Shown: positions 30,886 through 54,465 of the stretch, in pieces | Layout of the letters: each line of letters opens with the position of its first letter | Position numbering within the stretch: position 1 is the stretch's first letter | Source of the DNA: Microcoleus vaginatus PCC 9802 | GTDB taxonomy: Bacteria > Cyanobacteriota > Cyanobacteriia > Cyanobacteriales > Microcoleaceae | Length of the DNA: 64,000 nucleotides | NCBI GenBank assembly: GCA_022701275.1 | Contig: CP031740.1 | Span: 1,189,001 to 1,253,000, forward strand | Direction: 5' to 3' | Position numbers and translations under genes: made by a program | The notes under the pieces: model-generated | Seen by the model: only the letters and a program-made list of their open reading frames with translations | What the model was told of the DNA's origin: nothing | The model's database searches: none

Positions 30886-33800
30886 TTAGAACAAGAACAA
30901 TTCAGTATTACCGGTCGGTCCCAAATTGACATCCACAGTGGCAAACAAACTGTTACCACCAACCGTAGAACCGTTGCTATCGTAATACAGTTTAGTAGAC
31001 AAACCGTCGTAGATAGCCATGATGGACGGCCCGGTTAAAGTTGCTTCAAACACAGTTACATCAGACACTGTGCTGCTGTAAGCGTAGAAACTCGAACCCA
31101 AAGGCCCAGATCCGGTTGTAAAGGCTGCAAAACCAGTGCTGTCGAGGTTAATTACATCATCAGTAATGCTGTAATTGGTAATGAAATCCCCGCCGTCAGC
31201 AGTAGTTCCGCTGAACACAAACACATCCAAACCAGCACCGCCGTTGAGAACATTGGTTCCTACACCGCCGATTAAAGTGTCATTCCCCTCGTCGCCGAAG
31301 AGACTGTCGCTACCTGCGCCGCCGAAGAGACTGTCGTTACCCAAACCGCCGGAAATGCTGTCGTTACCCAAACCGCCGTCGAAAATGTCGGCACCAGAAC
31401 CGCCGCTGAAGATGTCAGCAAACTCAGTACCCGTGACGCTGTTATCAGTCGCATCTCCGGTAAACAAGACAGGAGTGGTGAAGTTGTAACCGCCAGCACC
31501 TGAACCGAAATTGTTAAAGGCGATGGGGAAAGTATTTCCAGCCGTAGTTAAATCAGCAACGCTGCCTGAGTTGGTAGTAGTACCAGTAACAGTAGTGCCA
31601 TTGGCAGAAGCGGCGATCGTACCTGTGAATACAAAGTCCGCCGTTCCCAGATTGGTAGCAGCAGTACCCAAATTCGCAATCAAGGTAGAACCATCGGCTG
31701 CGGTACCGTTCGAGTCAAAATACAACACAGTCTCGTTCGAGGCATTCGTAAATGCGAAGAAACCAGCCGTTGTAGAATTGCCCAGGGCTTTAGCTTGTGC
31801 ATCTTGCAAAGAGGCATAACTTCCGCCTGTGAAAATCACTAACTCTTGGCCAGTAATGTCAGGATTTGAACCCGTCACACCGTCAAAGTTAGTCGTAGTC
31901 AAATTGCCGAATTCGCTCGCGGTAAACTGGAATTTGTCACTTCCAGAGGTAAAGTCGGCAATTGTATCACCGCCTTCGCCTGCTGCTTTGTAAACAAACA
32001 GATCCCCACCAGCACCGCCAGTCAGAATATCTGCACCGCTGCCGCCGCTAAAGATGTCAGCAAACTCAGTACCCGTGACGCTGTTAGCACTCGCATCTCC
32101 GGTAAACAAGACAGGAGTGGTGAAGTTGTAACCGCCAGCACCTGAACCGAAATTGTTAAAGGCGACGGGGAAAGTGTTCCCAGCAGCAGTTAAATCAGCA
32201 ACGCTGCCTGAGTTGGTAGTAGTACCAGTCACAGTAGTGCCATTGGCAGAAGCGGCGATCGTACCTGTGAATACAAAGTCCGCCGTTCCCAGATTGGTAG
32301 CAGCCGTACCCAAATTCGCAATCAAGGTAGAACCATCGGCTGCGGTACCGTTCGAGTCAAAATACAACACAGTCTCGTTCGAGGCATTCGTAAATGCGAA
32401 GAAACCAGCCGTTGTAGAATTGCCCAGGGCTTTAGCTTGTGCATCTTGCAAAGAGGCATAACTTCCGCCTGTGAAAATCACTAACTCTTGGCCAGTAATG
32501 TCAGGATTTGAACCCGTCACACCGTCAAAGTTAGTCGTAGTCAAATTGCCGAATTCGCTCGCGGTAAACTGGAATTTGTCACTTCCAGAGGTAAAGTCGG
32601 CAATTGTATCACCGCCTTCGCCTGCTGCTTTGTAAACAAACAGATCCCCACCAGCACCGCCAGTCAGAATATCTGCACCGCTGCCGCCGCTAAAGATGTC
32701 AGCAAACTCAGTACCCGTGACGCTGTTAGCACTCGCATCTCCGGTAAACAAGACAGGAGTGGTGAAGTTGTAACCGCCAGCACCTGAACCGAAATTGTTA
32801 AAGGCGACGGGGAAAGTGTTCCCAGCAGCAGTTAAATCAGCAACGCTGCCTGAGTTGGTAGTAGTACCAGTCACAGTAGTGCCATTGGCAGAAGCGGCGA
32901 TCGTACCTGTGAATACAAAGTCCGCCGTTCCCAGATTGGTAGCAGCCGTACCCAAATTCGCAATCAAGGTAGAACCATCGGCTGCGGTACCGTTCGAGTC
33001 AAAATACAACACCGTCTCGTTCGAGGCATTCGTAAATGCGAAGAAACCAGCCGTTGTAGAATTGCCCAGGGCTTTAGCTTGTGCATCTTGCAAAGAGGCA
33101 TAACTTCCGCCTGTGAAAATCACTAACTCTTGACCAGTAATGTCAGGATTTGAACCCGTCACACCGTCAAAGTTAGTCGTAGTCAAATTGCCGAATTCGC
33201 TCGCGGTAAACTGGAATTTGTCACTTCCAGAGGTAAAGTCGGTAATTGTATCACCGCCTTCGCCTGTTGCTTTGTAAACAAACAGATCCGCACCAGCACC
33301 GCCAGTCAGAACATCTGCACCAGAACCGCCGCTGAAGATGTCAGCAAACTCAGTACCAGTGACGCTGTTAGCACTCGCATCTCCGGTAAACAAGACAGGA
33401 GTGGTGAAGTTGTAACCGCCAGCACCTGAACCGAAATTGTTAAAGGCGATGGGGAAAGTGTTCCCAGCAGCAGTTAAATCAACAATGCTGCCTGAGTTGG
33501 TTGTAGTACCAGTAGGAGAAGAGGCGATGGTACCTGTAAATACAAAGTCCGCCGTTCCCAGATTGCTAGCAGCAGTACCCAGATTCGCAATCAAGGTAGA
33601 ACCACCTGCTGCGGTCCCGTTCGAGTCAAAATACAACACCGTCTCGTTCGAGGCATTCGTAAATGCGAAGAAACCAGCAGTTGTAGAATTGCCCACGGCT
33701 TTAGCTTGTGCAGCTTCCAAAGAGGCATAACTGCCGCCTGTGAAAATCACTAACTCTTTGCCAGTAATGTCAGGAGAGACCCCGGTAACACCGTCAAAGT

Positions 33801-36800
33801 TAGTCGTAGTCAAATTGCCGAAAGCGCTCGCGCTAAACTCGAATTTGTCTACCCCAACAGTAAAGTCGGAAATTTTATCGCCGCCTTCTTTAGTTGTCCT
33901 GTAAACAAACAGATCCGTACCACTGCCACCGCTGATGCCATCCAAACCGAGGCCGCCGGTGATGGTATCGTTGCCGTCGCCGCCCTTGAGGCTATCGTTA
34001 AAGTTGCTGCCGACAATCTTGTCATCGCCTGCTAAACCATCGTAATTAACTGGGGCCGGAGAAGTGGTGAAATCCACATTGTCAGGGCCGGCAGTACCGA
34101 TAGGAATATTTAGTGGCGGGCCCGTGAAGACAAAGTTACTGACTTGCAGGCGAATGTTCAGCGCGAAACTGGCCACAATTTCAAAGCGCGCCCCAACAGC
34201 AAATACCAGTACAGAACGGCCGGTAGCGGCATCTGTAAACTGACAGAAAATAGGCGCCTCTGGGTTGCCACCCAACTGTGCAAACCGGGCTTGCAAAGTC
34301 GCGATGCTGGTAACACTGGTATCCAGAGTGAAGTCGAGCAAATTAGCGCTGCCGATCGACCCAGGAGCAGAATTAAGAGTAATGTCCAGTCGGGTCAAGC
34401 TAGAAACGCTGAGATTACCAAAAGCTGCCGTAGAAAGCTCTAAAACATCGTCAGTGACATTAAAGTCAGTAATAAAGTCAGCTTCTGCAACTGTTTGAAT
34501 CTCTTGGCGGGAAGTGCGGTAAATAAAGCTATCCTTTCCAGCACCCCCAGTGAGAATATTGGTTCCTAGACCACCTTCGATCGAGTCATCATCATCGCCA
34601 CCTTTAATTTTGTCGTTGCCCAAGCCTCCTTTTATTTTGTTTTTGCCTTTACCGACTTCGATATCGTCATCGTCATCGCCACTGTCGATATCGTTATCGC
34701 CATCGCCGACTTTAATTTTGTCCTTGCCTTTGCCGCTGATGATTTTGTTTTTGCCTTTACCGACTACGATATCGTCATCGTCATCGCCGCTGTCGATATC
34801 GTTATCGCCATCGCCTGCTTTAATTTTGTCCTTGCCTTTGCCACCGATGATTTTGTCCTTACCTGTGCCGGCTGTAATGTCATCGTCACCATCGCTGCCT
34901 TCGATGTCGTTATCGAGCGTCGCAGAACCGACAATAACTTGAGGTTCTGTAGTGCCAGCAAAGTTAAAGACATTTTGCTCGACATTGACGCTAAAACGCT
35001 GGCTGGGGAACTCTGCTCTGCCGTTGCTAACTTTAAAGCCAAAACCAGCCTTACCCTTATAACCTAATGTCGCTTTGAAACTTACGAAGCCTGCGTTAAT
35101 GTCTGCTTGAGTGAAGGTCGAACCGGGTTGTACGGCGACTCCCTTAAAGAATAGTTGGCCGGTTGTAGGATCGGGCAGCTCGGTTACCGTGTAGGTTATG
35201 CCGCTAGGACCTTGCTGGTCATCGACAAACTCCAACAACTCACGACTAATAGTTTGCTCGCCGCCGCTGGAACCAGCAACGCCGTTCTTATTAGCTCCGA
35301 CTCGCGGAGGGTTAAAAATCGGGTTCGCAGTTGGAGTTGGAGTTTGAGTTGGAGTTTGATTTGGAGTTTGAGTTTGAGGATCAACTCCTAAAAAGTCGCT
35401 AGCATCGATCTGCGTTGCGTTGACATTCGACAATTGCACCAGCGTCTTGTTATTGACCCGAATTTCGGTATTGGCCTGGACTTGTACAAAGCTCAAGCTG
35501 TTAAAGTTTAAGCCGCCAGTCAGCATAAACTTGTCTTTGCCGTCTTCGTAGTCACTGATGACTGCACTTGCCCCAGAGTTACTGTCACTCAGGCCATAAA
35601 CGTCATTTCCACCACCGCCGATACAGGTATGGTTGCCAGTACCGCCCATCAGCGTATCGTTGCCGTCGCCGCCCATCAGCGTATCCTCGCCGTCGCCGCC
35701 GCCGCTAACGCTGTCGTCGCCGTCGCCGCCGTCTGCCACGTCATTGCCGTCGCCAGTCACCAGGGTATCGGTGCCGCCACCGCCCATCACACTGTCGTCG
35801 CCAGCACCGCCCATCACGCTGTCGTCGCCGTCGTTGCCTTCACACTTGTCGTTGCCGTCGCCGCCCATCAGGGTATCGTCGCCGATGCCGCCGCTAACGC
35901 TGTCGTCGCCGTCGTCGCCGCTAACCTGGTCGCTGCCGCCACCGCCACTCACGGTATCGTTGCCGGTGCCGCCGCTAACGCTGTCGTCGCCGTCGTCGCC
36001 TTCACACTTGTCGCTGTCGGCACCGCCGCTCACGGTATCGTTACCGGTGCCGCCGCTAACGTTGTCGTTGCCATCGTCGCCACTGCAAACGTCGCTGTCG
36101 GCATCGCCGCGCACGATATCGTTATCTTTGCCGCCGTTAACGGTATCGTTGCCAGCGCCGCCGCTAACGTTGTCGTTGCCTCGATCGCCGCGCACGATAT
36201 CGTTGCCTTCGTCGCCCCCGCAATCGTCGTCGTCTTTGCCACCGTAGATGCTATCGTTGCCGGCGCCGCCCTTAACGTTATCCTTTCCTTCGTTGCCGTG
36301 GGCCCAGTCATCGCCGTCATCGCCTTGGCAGGTGTCGTTGCCTTCGCCGCCCATCACGGTATCGTTATCTTTACCGCCGTTAAGGGTGTCGTTGCCTTTG
36401 CCGCCCTTAACCTTGTCGTTGCCACGATCGCCCCTTACTTCATCGTCCTCATCGCCGCCCTCGCAATCGTCGTCACCTTTACCCGCGTAGATTTTATTTT
36501 TGTTGCGACGGTTTCCTTTGATTTCGTCCTTGCCTTCTTTGCCGTATATCTCATCCTGATTGCCGGTGGCGACAATTAAGTCATCGTCATTGCTACCGAC
36601 GACTCGGCGGCGCGGTTCCATGCCGTTGCCATCATCTAAGTCCTCGTCATCATCGTCATCAGTACCTCCAAAAGTCTGGAAAGCGATGCCGCTGTCATCA
36701 GCGTCGTCGCCCGCACCTTCTTCGGGTACGGCGTTAAACTCAGTCGTAAATTGGTCGTTATCGGCCACGATGCCAAGGCCAAGCTCTCTTTCGAGCGCTT

Positions 36801-36936
36801 CATTAATTAAGTTGGTTGAGTCCTCTGCGGAAATTGTAGGGGTGTTAGTGTCTAAACCCCCGACAGAATTTTGTGTTTCATCTGGCTTGGGAAAAAGTGT
36901 TCCCGATTCATTTTCTAACGCCAATCGTTCTTCCAT
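30886..36936 (-). CDS. Giant RTX-type calcium-binding repeat protein (2016 aa)
   Basis: The protein has an acidic N-terminus (about 1-115), then a long RTX beta-roll block (about 118-460) of GGxGxDxx nonapeptides. A Gln/Thr/Pro linker (about 525-545) follows, then a cadherin/CSPG-like domain (EQTISRELLEFVDD, ADINAGFVSF) near 550-660, a Lys/Asp-rich GKGKDKIKAGDGDND block, and four copies of a 214-aa module (about 1000-1840). It ends with another RTX block and FLF. The 214-aa module pairs GSGADILTGGAG repeats with a DFTSGSDKFQF-type domain. RTX proteins leave the cell by type I secretion and fold with Ca2+. No ABC exporter is nearby. It is probably a surface or matrix adhesin; a toxin role is not supported. 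Confidence 0.9.
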   Translation of the reverse strand: MEERLALENESGTLFPKPDETQNSVGGLDTNTPTISAEDSTNLINEALERELGLGIVADNDQFTTEFNAVPEEGAGDDADDSGIAFQTFGGTDDDDDEDLDDGNGMEPRRRVVGSNDDDLIVATGNQDEIYGKEGKDEIKGNRRNKNKIYAGKGDDDCEGGDEDDEVRGDRGNDKVKGGKGNDTLNGGKDNDTVMGGEGNDTCQGDDGDDWAHGNEGKDNVKGGAGNDSIYGGKDDDDCGGDEGNDIVRGDRGNDNVSGGAGNDTVNGGKDNDIVRGDADSDVCSGDDGNDNVSGGTGNDTVSGGADSDKCEGDDGDDSVSGGTGNDTVSGGGGSDQVSGDDGDDSVSGGIGDDTLMGGDGNDKCEGNDGDDSVMGGAGDDSVMGGGGTDTLVTGDGNDVADGGDGDDSVSGGGDGEDTLMGGDGNDTLMGGTGNHTCIGGGGNDVYGLSDSNSGASAVISDYEDGKDKFMLTGGLNFNSLSFVQVQANTEIRVNNKTLVQLSNVNATQIDASDFLGVDPQTQTPNQTPTQTPTPTANPIFNPPRVGANKNGVAGSSGGEQTISRELLEFVDDQQGPSGITYTVTELPDPTTGQLFFKGVAVQPGSTFTQADINAGFVSFKATLGYKGKAGFGFKVSNGRAEFPSQRFSVNVEQNVFNFAGTTEPQVIVGSATLDNDIEGSDGDDDITAGTGKDKIIGGKGKDKIKAGDGDNDIDSGDDDDDIVVGKGKNKIISGKGKDKIKVGDGDNDIDSGDDDDDIEVGKGKNKIKGGLGNDKIKGGDDDDSIEGGLGTNILTGGAGKDSFIYRTSRQEIQTVAEADFITDFNVTDDVLELSTAAFGNLSVSSLTRLDITLNSAPGSIGSANLLDFTLDTSVTSIATLQARFAQLGGNPEAPIFCQFTDAATGRSVLVFAVGARFEIVASFALNIRLQVSNFVFTGPPLNIPIGTAGPDNVDFTTSPAPVNYDGLAGDDKIVGSNFNDSLKGGDGNDTITGGLGLDGISGGSGTDLFVYRTTKEGGDKISDFTVGVDKFEFSASAFGNLTTTNFDGVTGVSPDITGKELVIFTGGSYASLEAAQAKAVGNSTTAGFFAFTNASNETVLYFDSNGTAAGGSTLIANLGTAASNLGTADFVFTGTIASSPTGTTTNSGSIVDLTAAGNTFPIAFNNFGSGAGGYNFTTPVLFTGDASANSVTGTEFADIFSGGSGADVLTGGAGADLFVYKATGEGGDTITDFTSGSDKFQFTASEFGNLTTTNFDGVTGSNPDITGQELVIFTGGSYASLQDAQAKALGNSTTAGFFAFTNASNETVLYFDSNGTAADGSTLIANLGTAATNLGTADFVFTGTIAASANGTTVTGTTTNSGSVADLTAAGNTFPVAFNNFGSGAGGYNFTTPVLFTGDASANSVTGTEFADIFSGGSGADILTGGAGGDLFVYKAAGEGGDTIADFTSGSDKFQFTASEFGNLTTTNFDGVTGSNPDITGQELVIFTGGSYASLQDAQAKALGNSTTAGFFAFTNASNETVLYFDSNGTAADGSTLIANLGTAATNLGTADFVFTGTIAASANGTTVTGTTTNSGSVADLTAAGNTFPVAFNNFGSGAGGYNFTTPVLFTGDASANSVTGTEFADIFSGGSGADILTGGAGGDLFVYKAAGEGGDTIADFTSGSDKFQFTASEFGNLTTTNFDGVTGSNPDITGQELVIFTGGSYASLQDAQAKALGNSTTAGFFAFTNASNETVLYFDSNGTAADGSTLIANLGTAATNLGTADFVFTGTIAASANGTTVTGTTTNSGSVADLTTAGNTFPIAFNNFGSGAGGYNFTTPVLFTGDATDNSVTGTEFADIFSGGSGADIFDGGLGNDSISGGLGNDSLFGGAGSDSLFGDEGNDTLIGGVGTNVLNGGAGLDVFVFSGTTADGGDFITNYSITDDVINLDSTGFAAFTTGSGPLGSSFYAYSSTVSDVTVFEATLTGPSIMAIYDGLSTKLYYDSNGSTVGGNSLFATVDVNLGPTGNTELFLF
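31400..33960. repeat. 642-bp tandem repeats inside the RTX gene
   Basis: Matching segments recur with an exact 642-bp period (for example at 31511, 32153, 32795 and 33437). The two middle copies differ by only a few bases; the copy nearest the protein N-terminal side (33.4-33.9 kb) is diverged and lacks a short segment. 642 bp equals 214 codons, so copy-number change keeps the frame. Confidence 0.95.
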
Positions 36937-38353: not shown

Positions 38354-38608
38354 ATGTTAAAGATAGGAAGATTGGAGAAAATTCGGCTTTCACCGAGCCA
38401 CAGGGCAATCAAAACTAATAAACTGTTATTAAAGTACAACTTTTATATTCTCAAAGTGTTTGAACAAATATATATGACCCTAGCGATCGCCCGATCGGGG
38501 GAAGCGCATTCAGAAACTTTGATAGAAAGAGTAAAAAATATGTTGCCGAGTGCTATTGCTAGCCACAAAAACGCAGGCAAATTCAGAATTAAGGCGGGAG
38601 GGCGCTAA
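38354..38608 (+). CDS. Possible small protein upstream of the CHAT gene (84 aa)
   Basis: An ORF from the ATG at 38354 to TAA at 38608 ends 4 nt before the CHAT GTG start. GAGG lies about 7 nt upstream. It is basic, with LIERVKNMLPSAIASHKNAG near the end. The tight spacing is the main support. No family was recognised and it may be a chance ORF. Confidence 0.3.
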   Translation: MLKIGRLEKIRLSPSHRAIKTNKLLLKYNFYILKVFEQIYMTLAIARSGEAHSETLIERVKNMLPSAIASHKNAGKFRIKAGGR

Positions 38609-38612
38609 ATCC

Positions 38613-40313
38613 GTGAGCCAGGAATTTCAACTCTCAGTCACCCCTGTTGGGGACGACGAATATCTAGTGCGGACAGAAAGGGTTGCACCCGGTGTACCCT
38701 TAGCCGAACAACAAGTCCGCTGGCCGATCGACGAATGGCTTGCACTGTCTGCTCAACTGATGAACGACCCGCTGGTGGGCTTGCTCCAGGGAAAAGTAGT
38801 ACAGGGAAGCAATTTGGCTGGTCGCGGCCTCTCCCGTTCGGGAAACAACTCAGCGCCCAATTTAGTAGCTCTGGGGCAACAATTATACAGCGGGCTGTTT
38901 CAAGGAAACTTGCGCGATAGCTGGACTTGCGCTCAAGGCATCGCCCAGCACCGCCGAGAAGTGCTGCAACTGCGACTCGGACTCAAAGGCCGGCGCTTGC
39001 CGCGGCTGCCGTGGGAAGTTCTGCACGCCGGCGATCGCCCTTTGGCAACCGGCACCGATGTCGTGTTTTCTCGCTACCAACCAGGTACAAGTTTGTTCAA
39101 ACAAACCCGGATACTGCCTAGTAGCGGGCCACTAAAAATTTTAATGGCGATCGCCTCTCCGAGCGATCGAGACAGCTTGCAGCTCAAGCGAGAAGTGCTC
39201 CACCTGCAACAAGAACTCCAAAACCGCACCGCTAATCCTCTCAAAAACAGCCCGCATTCCCCGGAAATTCAACTGACTATTCTCGAACAGCCCGATCGAG
39301 AACAACTTACTCAAGCCTTAGAACAAGGACACTACCAAGTCCTGCACTACGCAGGCCACAGCAACTTAGGTTCCAGAGGTGGCGAACTCTACTTAGTCAG
39401 CAGCCGCACCGGCTTAACCGAAACCCTCAGTGGCGACGACTTAGCTGGATTGCTTGTTAACAACGGTATTCAGATGGCCGTGTTCAACTCCTGCCGTGGC
39501 GCCTACGGCGACCCATCAGACCTCGCGGACGACAGCCCGGAACGGAACTTAACCGAAGCTCTAGTGAAGCGGGGCATTCCGGCAGTGCTAGCAATGGCAG
39601 AAAGCATCCCCGACGATGTAGCCCTAACTCTGACCCGGTTGTTTTACCGCAACCTCAATCAAGGCTATCCAGTCGATCTCAGCCTGAGCCGGGCCAGAGC
39701 TGGGCTAATTTCTGCCTACGGTTCTCACCAGCTATACTGGGCTTTGCCCATTCTCTACCAGCACCCGGACTTTGACGGCTATCTGATCGGCGGCCCAGCC
39801 CACAGCGCGACATCCGGGTCTCGGGTGCAAATAATCGCGTCGGGAACGCCGCCGGCTCTGGCGGGTACAGAATGGAGTGCGCCACCTTCACTCTCGGCGA
39901 TCGCCCAATACCCCCCAATCCCAGCCAATCGATCGCATGAGTCAGACAGTTCTGACGGCGAAGTCTGGGAATACTTTCCCGACCAATTAAAAGATCGCAG
40001 GGATTGGGTTCACCAGAACGATCGATTCGATGCTACTAATTCACCGAACTCACCGACGGCTTCGCCGTCCTCTATTCCTAATTCTGAGTCTTCGGCGATC
40101 CAAGCAACTCGCGCCGCTGCACCGACTCAGAAACCCTTAAAAAAACCGGGGTTGAAAAAATCTGTCGCTCTAATGCTTTGCTTATTGCCCGTGGCTTTGA
40201 GTGCTGGCTTTTTTGGGTGGCGCTACTCGCACCAGCGAGACACGAAACCTGAAGAGTTACTACCGGCGGTACGGACTCCCCTGTCGCAAAATTACCTGCA
40301 ACAACGTCACTAA
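38613..40313 (+). CDS. CHAT-domain (caspase-like) protein with C-terminal membrane anchor
   Basis: Start at the GTG at 38613 (SQEFQLSVTP), with GGGAGG upstream; the 566-aa length supports this choice. After an N-terminal beta-rich region the CHAT protease core carries His249 in HYAGHSN and Cys294 in NSCRGAYGD, the expected catalytic dyad. A low-complexity Ser/Pro region (about 450-510) leads to a single membrane helix (VALMLCLLPVALSAGFFGW) near the end and a short cytosolic tail. CHAT proteases cleave partner proteins in signalling and in some defence systems. The partner is unknown. Confidence 0.85.
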   Translation: MSQEFQLSVTPVGDDEYLVRTERVAPGVPLAEQQVRWPIDEWLALSAQLMNDPLVGLLQGKVVQGSNLAGRGLSRSGNNSAPNLVALGQQLYSGLFQGNLRDSWTCAQGIAQHRREVLQLRLGLKGRRLPRLPWEVLHAGDRPLATGTDVVFSRYQPGTSLFKQTRILPSSGPLKILMAIASPSDRDSLQLKREVLHLQQELQNRTANPLKNSPHSPEIQLTILEQPDREQLTQALEQGHYQVLHYAGHSNLGSRGGELYLVSSRTGLTETLSGDDLAGLLVNNGIQMAVFNSCRGAYGDPSDLADDSPERNLTEALVKRGIPAVLAMAESIPDDVALTLTRLFYRNLNQGYPVDLSLSRARAGLISAYGSHQLYWALPILYQHPDFDGYLIGGPAHSATSGSRVQIIASGTPPALAGTEWSAPPSLSAIAQYPPIPANRSHESDSSDGEVWEYFPDQLKDRRDWVHQNDRFDATNSPNSPTASPSSIPNSESSAIQATRAAAPTQKPLKKPGLKKSVALMLCLLPVALSAGFFGWRYSHQRDTKPEELLPAVRTPLSQNYLQQRH

Positions 40314-40727: not shown

Positions 40728-41411
40728 GATTCGGCAGCAGGAGCATTCGTCATTCGGCACAAGACAATAAAAGCCAGAGTTGCAACAATTAAGAACGTCC
40801 TCACCGTCAGTGCGGTTGGTATATTTCACAATAATTAATTATGGAAGCGGCTGTGAGTTTGACGCGCCCCTCCAGTTGGTGCATAAATTTTGAGAGTCTG
40901 GCAGTTTACAGGCCATGAGTGGAAACCAATACATTTCCATCGAAACTCCCTGTTGGGAACCGCTGCTAATTTGTAGTGCATCAAACATTTAAGCAGTTGT
41001 GCATTTAACTCGGTCTTTTTCAATTCCCCTGTGGAAATAACCTCAAATTCTTTGGCTTGGGGCCGTAGGAGGAAGATTTTCCCGAGTTCCCCCGAGACAT
41101 CTACTGATTCGTAGCGAAGTGTTAAGAGTCGCGAAGCAATCTCGCCCGATCAAAACTATTCCCCTCTTAGTGGCTGCCCGATGTTTCTGCCGCCCCCATT
41201 GAGTCGGGTTTTAGCTTAAACCCGTTCACCGAAGAGGTGAAATTTCCTTCAATTTTTAGCGGATTGCCTTCCCCAGACTGCGTTCTGTGCAAGTTATATG
41301 CCCAACACCTTAATAGAAGATTGCTCGTTGGTATTTGGGGTTTTGAGGGGATTTCGATCCCGAAAAATCGGGTTTATACCATTTTAGATTTTAGATTTTA
41401 GATTTTAGATT

Positions 41412-41933: not shown

Positions 41934-42344
41934 ATGGCAGAAACAGCTACAGCACCCTTAACAGGAAAAGGTCTGCTTCAAAAAATCAAAGGCAGTGATT
42001 TGCCACGCAGAGAACTTGCAAAGCTTTGCGGCTACTTCACTGTCAGCAAAAGTGGAGAAACCCGGATTAATCTGGCTGAGTTTTACGATGCAGTGTTAGC
42101 TGCTAAGGGCATTGAGCTAGAGAAGTCGAAAGCAGACGGACGCGGGCGAGAAGCGAGTTATCGAGCTAGCGTTCACAAGAATGGCTCGATCGTGATCGGC
42201 GCAAATTATACCCAAGAAATGGGATTAAAGCCGGGAGACGAGTTTGAAATTAAGCTCGGATACAAGCACATTCGCTTGATTCAGATCGATATGGACAGAC
42301 CGGATGTGGAATTGGATGATGAAGAGGAGGATACAGAAGAATAG
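41934..42344 (+). CDS. cyAbrB-type transcriptional regulator
   Basis: This 136-aa protein belongs to the cyanobacterial AbrB-like family, which controls carbon/nitrogen-responsive genes. It begins MAETATAPLTGKGLLQK and has LPRRELAKLCGYFTV, GRGREASYR and a C-terminal DNA-binding half with SVHKNGSIVIGANYTQEMG and KPGDEFEIKLGYKHIRL. In this group the AbrB-like domain is at the C-terminal end. The acidic tail (DDEEEDTEE) is notable. Whether it is cyAbrB1 or cyAbrB2 cannot be told here. Confidence 0.9.
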   Translation: MAETATAPLTGKGLLQKIKGSDLPRRELAKLCGYFTVSKSGETRINLAEFYDAVLAAKGIELEKSKADGRGREASYRASVHKNGSIVIGANYTQEMGLKPGDEFEIKLGYKHIRLIQIDMDRPDVELDDEEEDTEE

Positions 42345-45739: not shown

Positions 45740-46177
45740 ATGCTAACCCTCACAAAACATTTACCTGCAAATCCCGATGCTATTGTCAGCTTTACTTTAC
45801 AAATGACATCGGACGATCGCACTCGCAGCCGTCACCGATTCGAGACGGATACGGGGGAAAAGCTGCACCTGAGTTTGCCCAGAGGTACGGTACTGCGCGA
45901 TCGAGATTTATTGCAGTCGGAAGACGGTACCTGTTTGGTACTGGTAAGTGCAAAACCCGAACTGGTACTGACAGCGCGGGCATCAAGTCCGCTGCTACTG
46001 ATGCGGGCGGCTTATCATTTAGGAAACCGTCACGTAGCTTTAGAAATTGCGGATAATTATTTAAGATTTTCTCCCGACTCTGTGTTGCAGGGAATGCTCG
46101 AAAAAATGGGTTTGGAAGTAACAGAGGAAATTGTGCCGTTTCAGCCGGAAATGGGGGCTTACGGGCACAACCATTAG
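45740..46177 (+). CDS. ureE: Urease accessory protein UreE
   Basis: This 145-aa nickel metallochaperone hands Ni2+ to urease. The N-terminal domain and a C-terminal [20 protein letters not shown] are characteristic. The tail ends GAYGHNH, a short His tail that can bind nickel. It is followed in the same direction by ureF and ureG. Confidence 0.9.
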
Positions 46178-46184
46178 ATTTTTG

Positions 46185-46300
46185 ATTTTAGATTTTAGAT
46201 TTTAGATTTACTCCCACCCTGGAATCCGAGGGCTTATAACCAAATTAGTTTCGCTCATTCAAGAAGGAAGAAGTCAACACTCAACAGTCAACAGTCAACA
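46185..46300. repeat. TTAGATTT and CAACAGT short repeats
   Basis: GATTTTAGATTTTAGATTTTAG (about 46185-46209) and ACACTCAACAGTCAACAGTC (about 46275-46300) fill the ureE-ureF gap and reach the ureF start codon. Confidence 0.75.
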
Positions 46301-46990: not shown

Positions 46991-47027
46991 AAATCAGAAA
47001 ATCTAAAATCTAAAATCTAAAATCGCT

Positions 47028-50070: not shown

Positions 50071-50859
50071 ATGATTTCTATCCAAAACCAAATTGTTTTC
50101 ATTACAGGTGCCAGTAGCGGTATCGGAGCAGCCTGTGCCAAGATCTTCGCCAAAGGAGGAGCAAAACTAATTTTAGCAGCCCGCCGCCTTGAAAAGCTGG
50201 AGCGACTGGCAAACGAACTTGTAGAAACAAAATCGATCGCATCGGCGAACGAGATTTATTTGCTCGAATTGGACGTGCGCGATCGCCCGCAAGTGGAATC
50301 GGCGATAACTGCGCTTCCCGATGCCTGGAAAAGCATCGATATTCTGATTAACAATGCGGGATTGAGCCGTGGTTTAGACAAACTGCACGAAGGCAACTTT
50401 CAAGATTGGGAAGAAATGATTGATACCAATGTTAAAGGCTTGCTTTACATGACTCGCGCGATCGTGCCGGGAATGGTAAGCCGAGACCGCGGCCACGTAG
50501 TGAATATCGGCTCCATAGCAGGCCGCCAAGCTTATCCGAAAGGTAATGTTTATTGCGCTTCCAAAGCAGCAGTGAGAGCTATTTCCGAAGGGTTGAAACA
50601 AGACCTTTTGGGAACACCCGTGCGGGTGACGGAAATAGAGCCGGGTTTGGTGGAAACAGAATTTAGCAATGTCCGGTTTCACGGCGATGCAGAAAAAGCC
50701 AAAAATGTCTATCAAGGATTGACACCGCTGACTGCGGACGATGTAGCCGATGTCGTGTATTTTTGCGCGACGCGATCGCCCCACGTCAATATTAGCGAAG
50801 TCTTGCTAGTTCCGACAGACCAAGCTAGTGCAACTCTGGTTCACCGAAAAGAGTTGTGA
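50071..50859 (+). CDS. Short-chain dehydrogenase/reductase
   Basis: This 262-aa classical SDR has the TGASSGIG coenzyme motif, NNAG and the catalytic YCASK. The pattern AARRLEKLERLA and VRVTEIEPGLVETEFS resembles the YdfG/3-hydroxy-acid dehydrogenase (NADP) subgroup. The substrate is unknown. The 3' side ends in the tandem hairpin array. Confidence 0.9.
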   Translation: MISIQNQIVFITGASSGIGAACAKIFAKGGAKLILAARRLEKLERLANELVETKSIASANEIYLLELDVRDRPQVESAITALPDAWKSIDILINNAGLSRGLDKLHEGNFQDWEEMIDTNVKGLLYMTRAIVPGMVSRDRGHVVNIGSIAGRQAYPKGNVYCASKAAVRAISEGLKQDLLGTPVRVTEIEPGLVETEFSNVRFHGDAEKAKNVYQGLTPLTADDVADVVYFCATRSPHVNISEVLLVPTDQASATLVHRKEL

Positions 50860-50935
50860 GTTTTTAGTGGTAAGTGTCCGGATTGCGCTGGAATTCTCAG
50901 GAAGCTTAATTGGTAGATGCACCCTGATTAATTAA

Positions 50936-50969
50936 CTCCCGACCAATTTTGGTTCGGGGTTTTTTTTTG
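50936..50969 (+). terminator. First hairpin of array; likely SDR terminator
   Basis: CTCCCGACCAA...TTGGTTCGGGG plus T9, starting 77 nt after the SDR stop. Confidence 0.75.
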
Positions 50970-52164
50970 CGCTCACGCGCCCTCGCCACAAATTCTCCTA
51001 AATTCGGCCAAAGTGTCCTGAAAGAGCTGCTGTGAGACGGGAGACTAAATTAGTAGATGCACCCTGATTAATTAACTCCCGACCAATTTTGGCCGGGTTT
51101 TTTTTTGCGATCACGCGCCCTCGCCACAAATTATCGCAAATTCTGCCAAAGTGTCCTGAAAGAGGTGTTTTGAGGCGGGAGATTAAATTAGTAGATGCAC
51201 CCTGATTAATTAACTCCCGACCAATTTTGGCCGGGTTTTTTTTTGCGATCACGCGCCCTCGCCACAAATTATCGCAAATTCTGCCAAAGTGTCCTGAAAG
51301 AGGTGTTTTGAGGCGGGAGATTAAATTAGTAGATGCACCCTGATTAAATAACTCCCGACCAATTTTGGTTTGGGGTTTTTTTTTGCGGTATCGACGGTGA
51401 TGCTGAAAAAGTTTGAGGTTGTCCGGATTGCGCCTCGAATTCTCAGGAAGCTTAATTGGTAGATGCACCCTGATTAATTAACTCCCGACCAATTTTGGTT
51501 TGGGGTTTTTTTTTGCGGTATCAAGGGTGATGCTGAAAAAGTTTGAGGTTATCCGGATTGCGCTCGAATTCTCAGGAAGCTTAATTGGTAGATGCACCCT
51601 GATTAATCAACTCCCGACCAATTTTGGCCGGGTTTTTTTTTTGATATCGCCACCCAAACCACAAATTTTCGCAAATTGTCCCAAACTGCCCGGAACAGGT
51701 GCACCTCGAACCGGAGACTAAATTAGTAGATGCACCCTGATTAATTAACTCCCGACCAATTTTGGCCGGGTTTTTTTTTGCCATCGCCACCCAAACCACA
51801 AATTTTCGCAAATTGTCCCAAACTGTCCGGAACAGGTACACCTTGAACCGGAGACTAAATTAGTAGATGCACCCTGATTAATTAACTCCCGACCAATTTT
51901 GGCCGGGTTTTTTTTTTGATCTCGCACGCCGTCGCCACAAATTTCCGCAAAGTCTACCAAAGTGTCCTGAAAGAGGTGGTGTGAAGCCGGAGACTAAATT
52001 AGTAGATGCACCCTGATTAATTAACTCCCGACCAATTTTGGTTTGGGGTTTTTTTTTGCCGATCGCACGCCGTCGCCGCCAATTTTCGCAAATTCTGCCA
52101 AAGTGTCCTGAAAGAGGTGTTTTGAGGCGGGAGATTAAATTAGTAGATGCACCCTGATTAATAA

Positions 52165-52195
52165 ACCCCAGCCAATTTTGGCCGGGGTTTTTTTT
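52165..52195 (+). terminator. Last hairpin of array
   Basis: CCCCAGCCAATTTTGGCCGGGG plus T8, 28 nt from the convergent OB-fold gene stop. It probably separates the array from the minus-strand genes. Confidence 0.75.
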
Positions 52196-52222
52196 GCTCA
52201 AAAGCTGCATTAACCAATTAGG

Positions 52223-52444
52223 CTAATTCGCCTCAAAAGACTGCACCTCAAGAACCGGGCCGATCATAGCAAAAGTCATCACATCCTTACGCACTTCACC
52301 TTTAACACTGACTTTCAAACCAGCTTTTTTCAAATCAGAAGGAGCATCCTTAAGTTCGTAAGTTTCCCCATCTTCGCCGACCAAAGCCCAAGTACCGGGA
52401 CCCAATCCTTTGCGTTCAATTACACCTTTGACAGTAATACTCAT
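52223..52444 (-). CDS. Small OB-fold-like protein (73 aa)
   Basis: Beta-rich small protein: SITVKGVIERKGLGPGTWAL, GETYELKDAP, then VSVKGEVRKDVMTFAMIGP. The five-strand layout suits an OB fold. Its ATG overlaps the subtilase stop by 4 nt (ATGA at 52441-52444), so it is co-translated with the upstream protease. A role as an inhibitor, partner or regulator of the protease is possible but not shown. Confidence 0.7.
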   Translation of the reverse strand: MSITVKGVIERKGLGPGTWALVGEDGETYELKDAPSDLKKAGLKVSVKGEVRKDVMTFAMIGPVLEVQSFEAN

Positions 52445-54210
52445 GCCGATCGCACCTCTGTTTTAATTGCTAAACGCGCCAGTCCGAAACACAGTAAAGC
52501 ATTGACAATCAAAAATGTTTGTGATACCAAACCTGTGCCCAATCCCCAGACTGTGGGAGACACAAAAGCATTCACCGCTAAACTGCTGGCAAAACCGATC
52601 GAAATTGCGATCGCGATCCACTTCCACTGTTGATGTCCCAACAGCAAAGCAATCAAAATCCCAGGAATCAAAACGCTAGCAAAAAAGGGATTCAGCATAC
52701 TGCTGCCATTAATTGCACCGCCGAGTTCGGGAATAGAACTGCCCATCACCCGCATCGGCCACTGTGGCAAGTCAAATACAAACAAGTTCCGCAGGAAAAA
52801 GAACCCAGAACTCCCAGCCATCAAGCCGCCGGAAAAGCCCCAAGTCCACTGGAACGGAAAATAATTCCGCAAAAAGAAAGCCAGCAGGTAAGAACCGAGC
52901 ACCATTGCAATTTTAGGCAACAGGGCGACTGCACCGCCGTCAATCCAAAAGCGGGGGTTGAGATAGCCGTTATCGCGCAGCCAGCGGAAGAAATCGCGGA
53001 AGTTGATTTGTCCGCGCTGGGCTAGCTGAACTGCTGCGGCTGCGTCTAGGTGTCCTGAACCAAAATGGTTTAACGGATCTTCAGTGACAGTTCGCGAGGA
53101 CTGCAAGAGTACGCTGCGAATTTCGTCTGGTTCTGTGATGCCGGAAGCCTTGACAAGGGCTGCAACGGCTGCAACGTGGGGAGAAGCCATGCTAGTGCCT
53201 TGGTAGCCTTCAAAGACTTCGGCGCCTGTTTCCGGGTCGATCGTACTTTGCAGGATCTTGCCCATTTCAGAACCGCCGGGGGCTGCAATGTCAACCCCTG
53301 CGCCGAAATTCGAGTAAGTGGCTTTTTCGTCGTCGGGGCCCAGGGCCGAAACGCCGATGACGTGGGGATAGCGGGCGGGATAGGAAGCGGAACTGTCGCC
53401 GGAGTTGCCGGCGGCTGCGATGACGACAACGCCTTTAGAGTGCGCGTAGTCGATCGCCTCTTCCATTAACTGACTTTCGCCGCCACCGCCTAAACTCATG
53501 TTGATGACATCTGCGCCGTTGTCAGCAGCAAATTTAATTGCTTCGGCGATGTCGGAAACCGTGCCGCCACCGCTGCCGCTTAACACTTTTAGCGGCATTA
53601 AAGCTGCTTCGTAGGCAATGCCCGCAACGCCGTAATTGTTGTTAGTTGATTGGGCGACTGTACCGGCGACGTGAGTACCGTGGCCGTTGTCATCGTAGGC
53701 TTCGGCGCGATCGTTTACAAAGTCGTAGCCCGGTACAAATTTGGTTTCTTTTAAGTCAGCGACTGGAGTAATACCCGTGTCAATTATCGCTACTGTTGTG
53801 CCGCTGCCTTTGGTTTCGTTCCAGGCAGATTCTACGTTGATACTGCGGAGATTCCACTGCTTGGTATACATGGGGTCGTTGGGAATCTCGAAAGCGCTGT
53901 AGACGTAGTTCGGTTCAATGTATTCGGTATCTTTAGCCAAATTTGATTTTCTCAGGGCGTTTAGCAAAGTGCGATCGCCCTTAACTACATATACATTGTC
54001 GCCCCCTGAGAATTCGCTGTTGAGTTGCGGTGCGATTTGGTACTGTTGGGCGATCGCATTTACTTCTTTCGCAATCTCAGCAGCACCCAAATCTTCGCGG
54101 AAATCAAGCACAATCGAGTCGTAAGTGCCTTGAGTAGCAAGTCCTGGGAAATTAGAAATCGCCCAGCCGAGCCCGATTAAAAATAAGCACAGAAGGAAAA
54201 ACTTTTTCAT
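52441..54210 (-). CDS. S8 family subtilisin-like protease with C-terminal membrane domain
   Basis: Start at the ATG at 54210 (MKKFFLLCLFLIGLGWAI, a signal/anchor), giving 589 aa. After a prodomain (VLDFREDLGAAEI...) the peptidase has the triad Asp144 (IIDTGI), His177 (NGHGTHVAG) and Ser340 (GTSMASP), and the oxyanion Asn in AAAGNSGDS. From about residue 405 a C-terminal part has about five hydrophobic segments (LLPKIAMVLGSYLLAFFL and later), which would anchor it in the membrane. It probably processes secreted or envelope proteins. The OB-fold gene is translationally coupled downstream. Confidence 0.9.
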   Translation of the reverse strand: MKKFFLLCLFLIGLGWAISNFPGLATQGTYDSIVLDFREDLGAAEIAKEVNAIAQQYQIAPQLNSEFSGGDNVYVVKGDRTLLNALRKSNLAKDTEYIEPNYVYSAFEIPNDPMYTKQWNLRSINVESAWNETKGSGTTVAIIDTGITPVADLKETKFVPGYDFVNDRAEAYDDNGHGTHVAGTVAQSTNNNYGVAGIAYEAALMPLKVLSGSGGGTVSDIAEAIKFAADNGADVINMSLGGGGESQLMEEAIDYAHSKGVVVIAAAGNSGDSSASYPARYPHVIGVSALGPDDEKATYSNFGAGVDIAAPGGSEMGKILQSTIDPETGAEVFEGYQGTSMASPHVAAVAALVKASGITEPDEIRSVLLQSSRTVTEDPLNHFGSGHLDAAAAVQLAQRGQINFRDFFRWLRDNGYLNPRFWIDGGAVALLPKIAMVLGSYLLAFFLRNYFPFQWTWGFSGGLMAGSSGFFFLRNLFVFDLPQWPMRVMGSSIPELGGAINGSSMLNPFFASVLIPGILIALLLGHQQWKWIAIAISIGFASSLAVNAFVSPTVWGLGTGLVSQTFLIVNALLCFGLARLAIKTEVRSA

Positions 54211-54465
54211 TGCCGATCGTCCGTTTAGGGAAGGCGTGTTCACCACAATAACCCAATTTTCACCGCCAGCGCCAGTTTTCCTTGCTGTGGCTTGTGGATA
54301 TCTCGCACGCGGGCGTTTGGTAGTTTTCGGCGGTGGCTGTTGCTCGAACAAAAATTGCTCTAATTTCTCGTTTAAATTGCAGAGCAAGTTGTAGGAGTTC
54401 AATTAATTGTATCATGAGAGAAGATGACCAACAGAACAAGCGAGTATTTTCAACAAGGGTATTGC

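Follow-up and report, generated by a model that had tools for sequence, protein, structure and literature searches.

The tandem array at 50877–52196 (+) probably consists of ten separate NsiR1 genes, every one of them equipped with a DIF1-type promoter and a terminator-like end; these genes would belong to the HetR/HetZ circuit and repress translation by base-pairing. The evidence obtained here comprises the family membership of the RNAs, the fixed spacing of their promoter boxes, a locus in common with hetF-nsiR1 arrays, and the co-occurrence of NsiR1 with HetR.

Ten tandem units match the NsiR1 family

Ten occurrences of a conserved block lie at 50915–52145 of the window (the whole 64-kb stretch of DNA analysed), with spacings of 140, 138, 138, 130, 129, 138, 137, 139, and 141 bp, and TRF reported a tandem repeat at 50908–52197 (period 138, 9.4 copies, score 1258). 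The original prediction of ten tandem units, each closed by a hairpin and T8–T10, was borne out, except that the predicted unit length of 129–140 bp has to be widened to the observed 129–141 bp. The ten head-to-tail units, counted with their boxes and RNAs, are as follows:

NsiR1 copy 1, 50911–50967 (+): RF02399 58.2 bits; DIF1 box TCCGGA, 50877–50882; T run, 50960–50968
NsiR1 copy 2, 51051–51106 (+): RF02399 47.1 bits; box TCCTGA, 51016–51021
NsiR1 copy 3, 51189–51244 (+): RF02399 47.1 bits; box TCCTGA, 51154–51159
NsiR1 copy 4, 51327–51383 (+): RF02399 52.9 bits; box TCCTGA, 51292–51297
NsiR1 copy 5, 51457–51513 (+): RF02399 56.5 bits; box TCCGGA, 51422–51427
NsiR1 copy 6, 51586–51641 (+): RF02399 49.6 bits; box TCCGGA, 51552–51557
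NsiR1 copy 7, 51724–51779 (+): RF02399 47.1 bits; box CCCGGA, 51689–51694
NsiR1 copy 8, 51861–51916 (+): RF02399 47.1 bits; box TCCGGA, 51826–51831
NsiR1 copy 9, 52000–52056 (+): RF02399 53.2 bits; box TCCTGA, 51965–51970
NsiR1 copy 10, 52141–52196 (+): RF02399 57.2 bits; box TCCTGA, 52106–52111; T run, 52188–52195

Each unit includes, in order, a TCCGGA-type box at −34/−35, the 5′ block T[G/A]GTAGATGCACCCTGATTAA, a hairpin, and a run of 8–10 T residues, the last as predicted in all ten units. All ten units matched the Rfam NsiR1 model (RF02399) end to end (model positions 1–60) with 47.1–58.2 bits, against a gathering threshold of 39 bits, and the conserved block noted ahead of the T residues corresponds to the 5′ end of this model. 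Because every unit exceeds the threshold, the array is no new RNA family. The covariance-model search thus supports a candidate small-RNA array with a plan like that of NsiR1, as had been proposed, and corrects the accompanying statement that the sequence differs from NsiR1. A 16-mer complementary to the block had ten exact matches, all of them in the array, and one match elsewhere with 3 mismatches (0.32 matches expected from shuffles at up to 3 mismatches).

Mean identity between units was 94.6% over the first 38 nt of the RNA versus 62.3% over the 40-nt promoters and 60.0% over the spacers, that is to say, the RNA rather than the whole unit has been held constant. The terminator hairpin had been described as the same in all units; hairpin and T run are indeed present throughout, but the hairpin sequence has four variants across the ten units, and the four units folded have stems with a mismatch or bulge (−9.6 to −17.1 kcal/mol; z-scores of −0.67 to −2.84). 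A strict terminator scan, which required an unbroken stem of 5 pairs, found none in the array versus a mean of 2.5 in shuffles; therefore, not all ten hairpins are strong terminators on their own. A sigma-70 scan returned 2 promoter-like sites, both on the opposite strand, versus a mean of 1.7 in shuffles.

The source genome (one contig of 6,698,371 bp) contains 13 NsiR1 matches by Rfam and one further copy, at C1:2063433, found through its 5′ block. Comparison with the hetF arrays of Nostoc/Anabaena PCC 7120 and Nodularia spumigena CCY9414 revealed that the RNA (by the Rfam model), the tandem plan, and the DIF1-type −35 box are common to all, with the following differences in the present array: (i) the host has no nifD above cut-off; (ii) hetF is not adjacent; (iii) there is no antisense overlap; and (iv) the commonest box is TCCTGA. 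A single RNA gene, as opposed to ten in tandem, has been described in Limnospira indica PCC 8005, which neither forms heterocysts nor fixes N2; its 57-nt product RNA162 was described as NsiR1-like, and the accessible text of that account includes no promoter or distribution analysis (PMC8400943).

Two promoter classes of NsiR1

A DIF1-type box is located at −34/−35 in all ten units, as exact TCCGGA in four and with one mismatch in six; the published DIF1 set also tolerated one mismatch (PMC6133370). TCCTGA, the commonest variant in the array, also precedes patX in 6 of 11 stretches, namely all those that yielded a patX frame; the array shares its DIF1-type box with patX in the present genus. 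The patX-hetR system comprises protein and peptide genes, and the accessible published text does not name NsiR1 within the widespread hetR-patX set. Strains of Leptolyngbya sp. BL0902 with deletions of hetR, patX, and patX-hetR have been published (PMC11298460).

For the 39 genomes that belong to families other than that of Nodularia, copies were assigned to a DIF1 class (box with at most one mismatch) or a palindrome class (GGGGTNNNACCCC with at most two mismatches). Among the 216 copies scored, 171 carry the DIF1 box, 42 the palindrome, and 3 neither, compared with shuffle expectations of 11.7 and 1.9 for the two classes. The DIF1 box starts at −35 or −34 in 146 of the 171 copies, and 3 of the 42 palindrome copies carry a DIF1 box as well. 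DIF1 copies exist in 37 of these genomes and palindrome copies in 29. These counts come from a 5′-block re-scan of the retrieved stretches, which set aside 3 copies lacking a T run, 2 at the edges of stretches, and 2 duplicates. An earlier count used 133 of the 237 NsiR1 matches listed in the 39 genomes, excluding repeats inside arrays and weak single matches, and gave 109 DIF1, 22 palindrome, and 2 neither; 20 of the 28 weak matches thus excluded were then classed (14 palindrome, 4 DIF1, and 2 neither), the last two of which have no 5′ block and probably represent false matches. In the Nodularia family (11 stretches), all copies scored belong to the DIF1 class. Among the matches listed, the palindrome class also occurs in named heterocyst-formers (e.g., L023, L071, L080, and L115), and the palindromes of L065 (Nostoc) and L090 (Nodularia) have three mismatches.

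HetR binds GAGGGGTCTAACCCCTC and requires GGGnnnnnCCC (PMC4192349), and the palindrome class of NsiR1 copies fits this published recognition pattern. In two NsiR1-like copies of the source genome (L358, G000:C1:2063433; L164, G000:C1:5344365), such a HetR-operator-like palindrome replaces the DIF1 box. Assignment of the palindrome class to NsiR8 or NsiR9 was rejected, since the lengths of 171 and 122 nt do not fit. We found no mention of palindrome-class NsiR1 in the accessible literature on NsiR1, on NsiR9, and on HetR-binding sites together with sRNAs, most of it outside subscription journals.

NsiR1 and HetR across cyanobacteria

The absence of relatives had been named as an argument against a small-RNA array. 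Across 386 cyanobacterial genomes drawn from the whole phylum, NsiR1 was found above cut-off in 79 and HetR in 79, so this objection does not hold. Both were present in 77 genomes, each alone in 2, and neither in 305 (phi 0.968); because the genomes are related, this and the following co-occurrence figures are descriptive and do not count independent cases. The association with nifD is lower, with a phi of 0.706 for the 73 genomes with matches at E up to 1e-90 and 0.580 for the 60 above cut-off; 12 of the 13 genomes between these limits have what look like interrupted genes, and the nifD match in G114 may be a paralogue only. For membership of the Nodularia family, phi was 0.689. Outside that family are 37 of the 79 NsiR1 genomes, and for 21 of the 37 the nifD search gave nothing at E up to 1e-90. 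NsiR1 is known as a marker of heterocysts, the cells that fix N2, and these counts correct the label “heterocyst-specific” for the NsiR1 gene family. In the genomes sampled, NsiR1 thus appears to go with HetR rather than with heterocysts.

The two genomes with NsiR1 and no HetR match are G227 and G306, where a renewed search with the full HetR protein again found none; G227 has four palindrome-class NsiR1 copies despite this. Conversely, G058 and G083 have HetR with only sub-cut-off NsiR1 matches. Fifteen genomes have a sub-cut-off match only, 13 of them without HetR, and such matches can arise by chance, as an E. coli control also yields one. Among the matches listed, sub-cut-off ones in named contigs include L055 and L100 (Microcystis) and L082 (Hydrococcus). 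L100 and L082 share the 5′ block, have a different hairpin, and carry neither box nor palindrome; the Microcystis/Hydrococcus RNA is perhaps an older parent RNA.

In the source genome, hetR is present (257.8 bits), and an adjoining 75-residue frame with the motif RGSGR matches NCBIfam PatX (41.6 versus a cut-off of 30). The best nifD match reached 47.6 bits against a cut-off of 653.55. Judged on nitrogenase alone, the host therefore does not fix N2 as the heterocyst-specific label would imply.

The locus and its relation to hetF

As predicted, the array lies between an SDR gene and convergent genes. The neighbouring genes of interest are as follows:

SDR gene, 50071–50859 (+): 262 aa, left flank; adh_short 182.9 bits
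Small protein, 52223–52444 (−): 73 aa, right flank; weak Pfam match below cut-off (DUF5818, 22 versus 27 bits)
S8 (subtilisin-type) protease with DUF5942, 52441–54402 (−): right flank; Peptidase_S8 192.2 bits, DUF5942 329.5 bits
hetF, shortened open frame, 38613–40313 (+): Nodularia HetF search, E 4.1e-152; CHAT domain

In genus-mates G193, G201, and G334, the array likewise has the SDR gene on its left. On the right, the 73-residue protein clusters with its counterpart beside hetF-nsiR1 loci, and the S8-DUF5942 architecture also adjoins nsiR1 in L284, L252, and L289. The Nodularia genome G282 carries hetF, the nsiR1 array, small proteins, and the S8-DUF5942 protease in succession; this order is repeated in 4 of the 39 genomes from other families (G060, G195, G227, and G358), with one further frame inserted in G195. 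An nsiR1 copy with hetF nearby was found in 9 of the 39, G227 included. Five of these nine HetF proteins were checked and matched nearly the whole NCBIfam HetF model with 759–928 bits, below the cut-off of 1200; the remaining four were assigned by clustering.

The present array is not directly upstream of and antisense to hetF, but its other flank, with the small protein and the S8-DUF5942 protease, is that of the hetF-nsiR1 arrays elsewhere. The differing neighbourhood put forward in the original prediction is therefore correct in that hetF is not adjacent and incorrect for the right flank, and hetF itself lies within the window, at a distance of 10.6 kb on the left side. This displacement would be accounted for if the hetF-SDR segment had been inverted. 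The hetF open frame (window 38550–40313) stops after the N-terminal CHAT part, and the NCBIfam HetF model is matched over its N-terminal part only (636.7 bits; cut-off 1200). At E up to 1e-30, no match to the HetF C-terminal part was found in the source genome, G039, G201, G334, or G352; G193 has one.

Single NsiR1 copies also keep fixed places: among the 39 genomes from other families, 21 have one next to lgt, 20 have one next to a precorrin methyltransferase gene, and 16 have both, the two gene names having been checked in the source genome. Close linkage of a single copy to hetR was considered and rejected: the distance is 12.8 kb in the source genome and 3.6 kb in G350, but it reaches 50 and 111 kb elsewhere, and thus no linkage is claimed.

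Other features of the window include an AbrB-like regulator gene between hetF and the array (41934–42344; PF14250, 107.9 bits), a 2016-residue frame (30886–36936) with long Asp/Gly-rich tandem repeats that look RTX-like by eye, and short heptanucleotide tandem arrays at 41381–41411, 46174–46209, and 46998–47024. Cyanobacterial AbrB proteins have been named as brakes on heterocyst differentiation (PMC9045159).

Predicted targets of the array

In Nostoc, NsiR1 depends on HetR and represses hetF as an antisense RNA; it also prevents translation of the hetP-like gene alr3234 by acting at the start codon (PMC9045159). In Anabaena, altered nsiR1.1 changed the signal of a hetF promoter reporter little (PMC8406250). 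Because hetF is no longer beside the present array, its NsiR1 should act in trans. We rejected hetF as a trans target: the predicted duplex has −17.7 kcal/mol versus a background median of −16.2 kcal/mol (with the start one base off), and seed complementarity upstream of hetF was at background (p 0.19–0.99) in the 5 of 11 cases with a start located by motif.

A search of the source genome for near-complements of the 5′ block with up to 2 mismatches gave 8 sites outside the NsiR1 copies, 6 of which were inspected; a backwards control pattern gave 0 matches. One near-complement abuts the ATG of a 71-residue frame, the product of which we take to be HetP-like from a motif. This protein has no Pfam or NCBIfam match and one plasmid match, annotated as hypothetical. 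In 5 of 6 genus members, the site ends at the ATG of this gene, with scores of 32, 26, 24.5, 23, and 22, where 99% of background windows score at or below 20.5 and the 26 is the source genome's own site, selected by the search itself. In the sixth member, G193, the complementary site is absent at that place. Start-site scoring used one row per genome for the 30 of 34 genomes with a match, the G358 row being wrongly framed; in the other 24 genomes, the best match had a p of 0.018 (G183), and conservation was thus seen within the genus, among close relatives. The 71-residue HetP-like gene is the best predicted NsiR1 target in the present genus.

Three further near-complements lie upstream of frames that, judged by eye, encode two DUF4347-like proteins and one SDR; L356 and L357 (G000:C1:1404874 and 1409328), 4.5 kb apart, are each located shortly before a DUF4347-like frame.

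By analogy with the published Nostoc work, HetR would, through HetZ, switch on the DIF1 promoters of the array, all ten together, and ten copies would supply a large dose of the ~57-nt RNA. The RNA 5′ end, T[G/A]GTAGATGCACCCTGAT, would then pair with translation starts and block ribosomes. The NsiR1 of the array would act in this way in trans, and at the best predicted target, the HetP-like gene, the start codon closes the complementary site.

Alternative explanations

An unlikely alternative is that NsiR1 here is a HetR-independent sRNA and that its co-occurrence with HetR reflects only the shared ancestry of filamentous lineages. The two genomes that keep NsiR1 without a HetR match and the related, palindrome-free RNA in Microcystis and Hydrococcus contigs are in its favour, but 213 of the 216 copies scored have a DIF1 box or HetR-type palindrome, and even the single copy of G306 has a box with one mismatch. 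We consider it slightly less probable that the array is a functionless relic of a heterocyst-forming ancestor, as the host without nifD above cut-off, the shortened and moved hetF, and the mismatch in six of the ten boxes might suggest. Against this, the RNA has been kept while promoters and spacers diverged, copy number is high in genus-mates too, and 37 genomes outside the Nodularia family, of which 21 lack a strong nifD match, have NsiR1 above cut-off with intact boxes.

That the array mainly serves antisense control of hetF, like nsiR1.1 in Nostoc, is very unlikely, although hetF is still in the same window and Nodularia, together with 9 of 39 genomes from other families, shows the hetF-nsiR1 neighbourhood. 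The distance to hetF is 10.6 kb, its pairing with the RNA is at background, and changes in nsiR1.1 altered the hetF reporter little in Anabaena (PMC8406250), although repression of translation is reported in PMC9045159. A mobile or selfish repeat whose hairpins resemble terminators and which has no regulatory role would explain why copy number differs among genus-mates and why single copies exist elsewhere in the genome, but it is hard to reconcile with the fixed box-RNA spacing, the near-invariant 5′ block, and the fixed positions of single copies, such as the place next to lgt shared by 21 of 39 genomes, and its probability is close to negligible.

Implications

An NsiR1-like RNA in a non-heterocystous strain was already known (PMC8400943); what is new is that NsiR1 forms a tandem array although its host has no nifD above cut-off, that this array is separated from hetF, and that across the phylum the RNA follows HetR. 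The evidence is about evenly balanced for a wider proposal, namely that NsiR1 predates the heterocyst and, in filamentous cyanobacteria, serves the HetR system as its standing RNA output, kept with or without N2 fixation or heterocysts and under two promoter classes; an older sRNA switch on HetP-like genes would then have been put to use in heterocyst commitment only later. NsiR1 with its DIF1 boxes or HetR-operator-like sites would provide a direct reporter for the role of HetR where heterocysts are absent.
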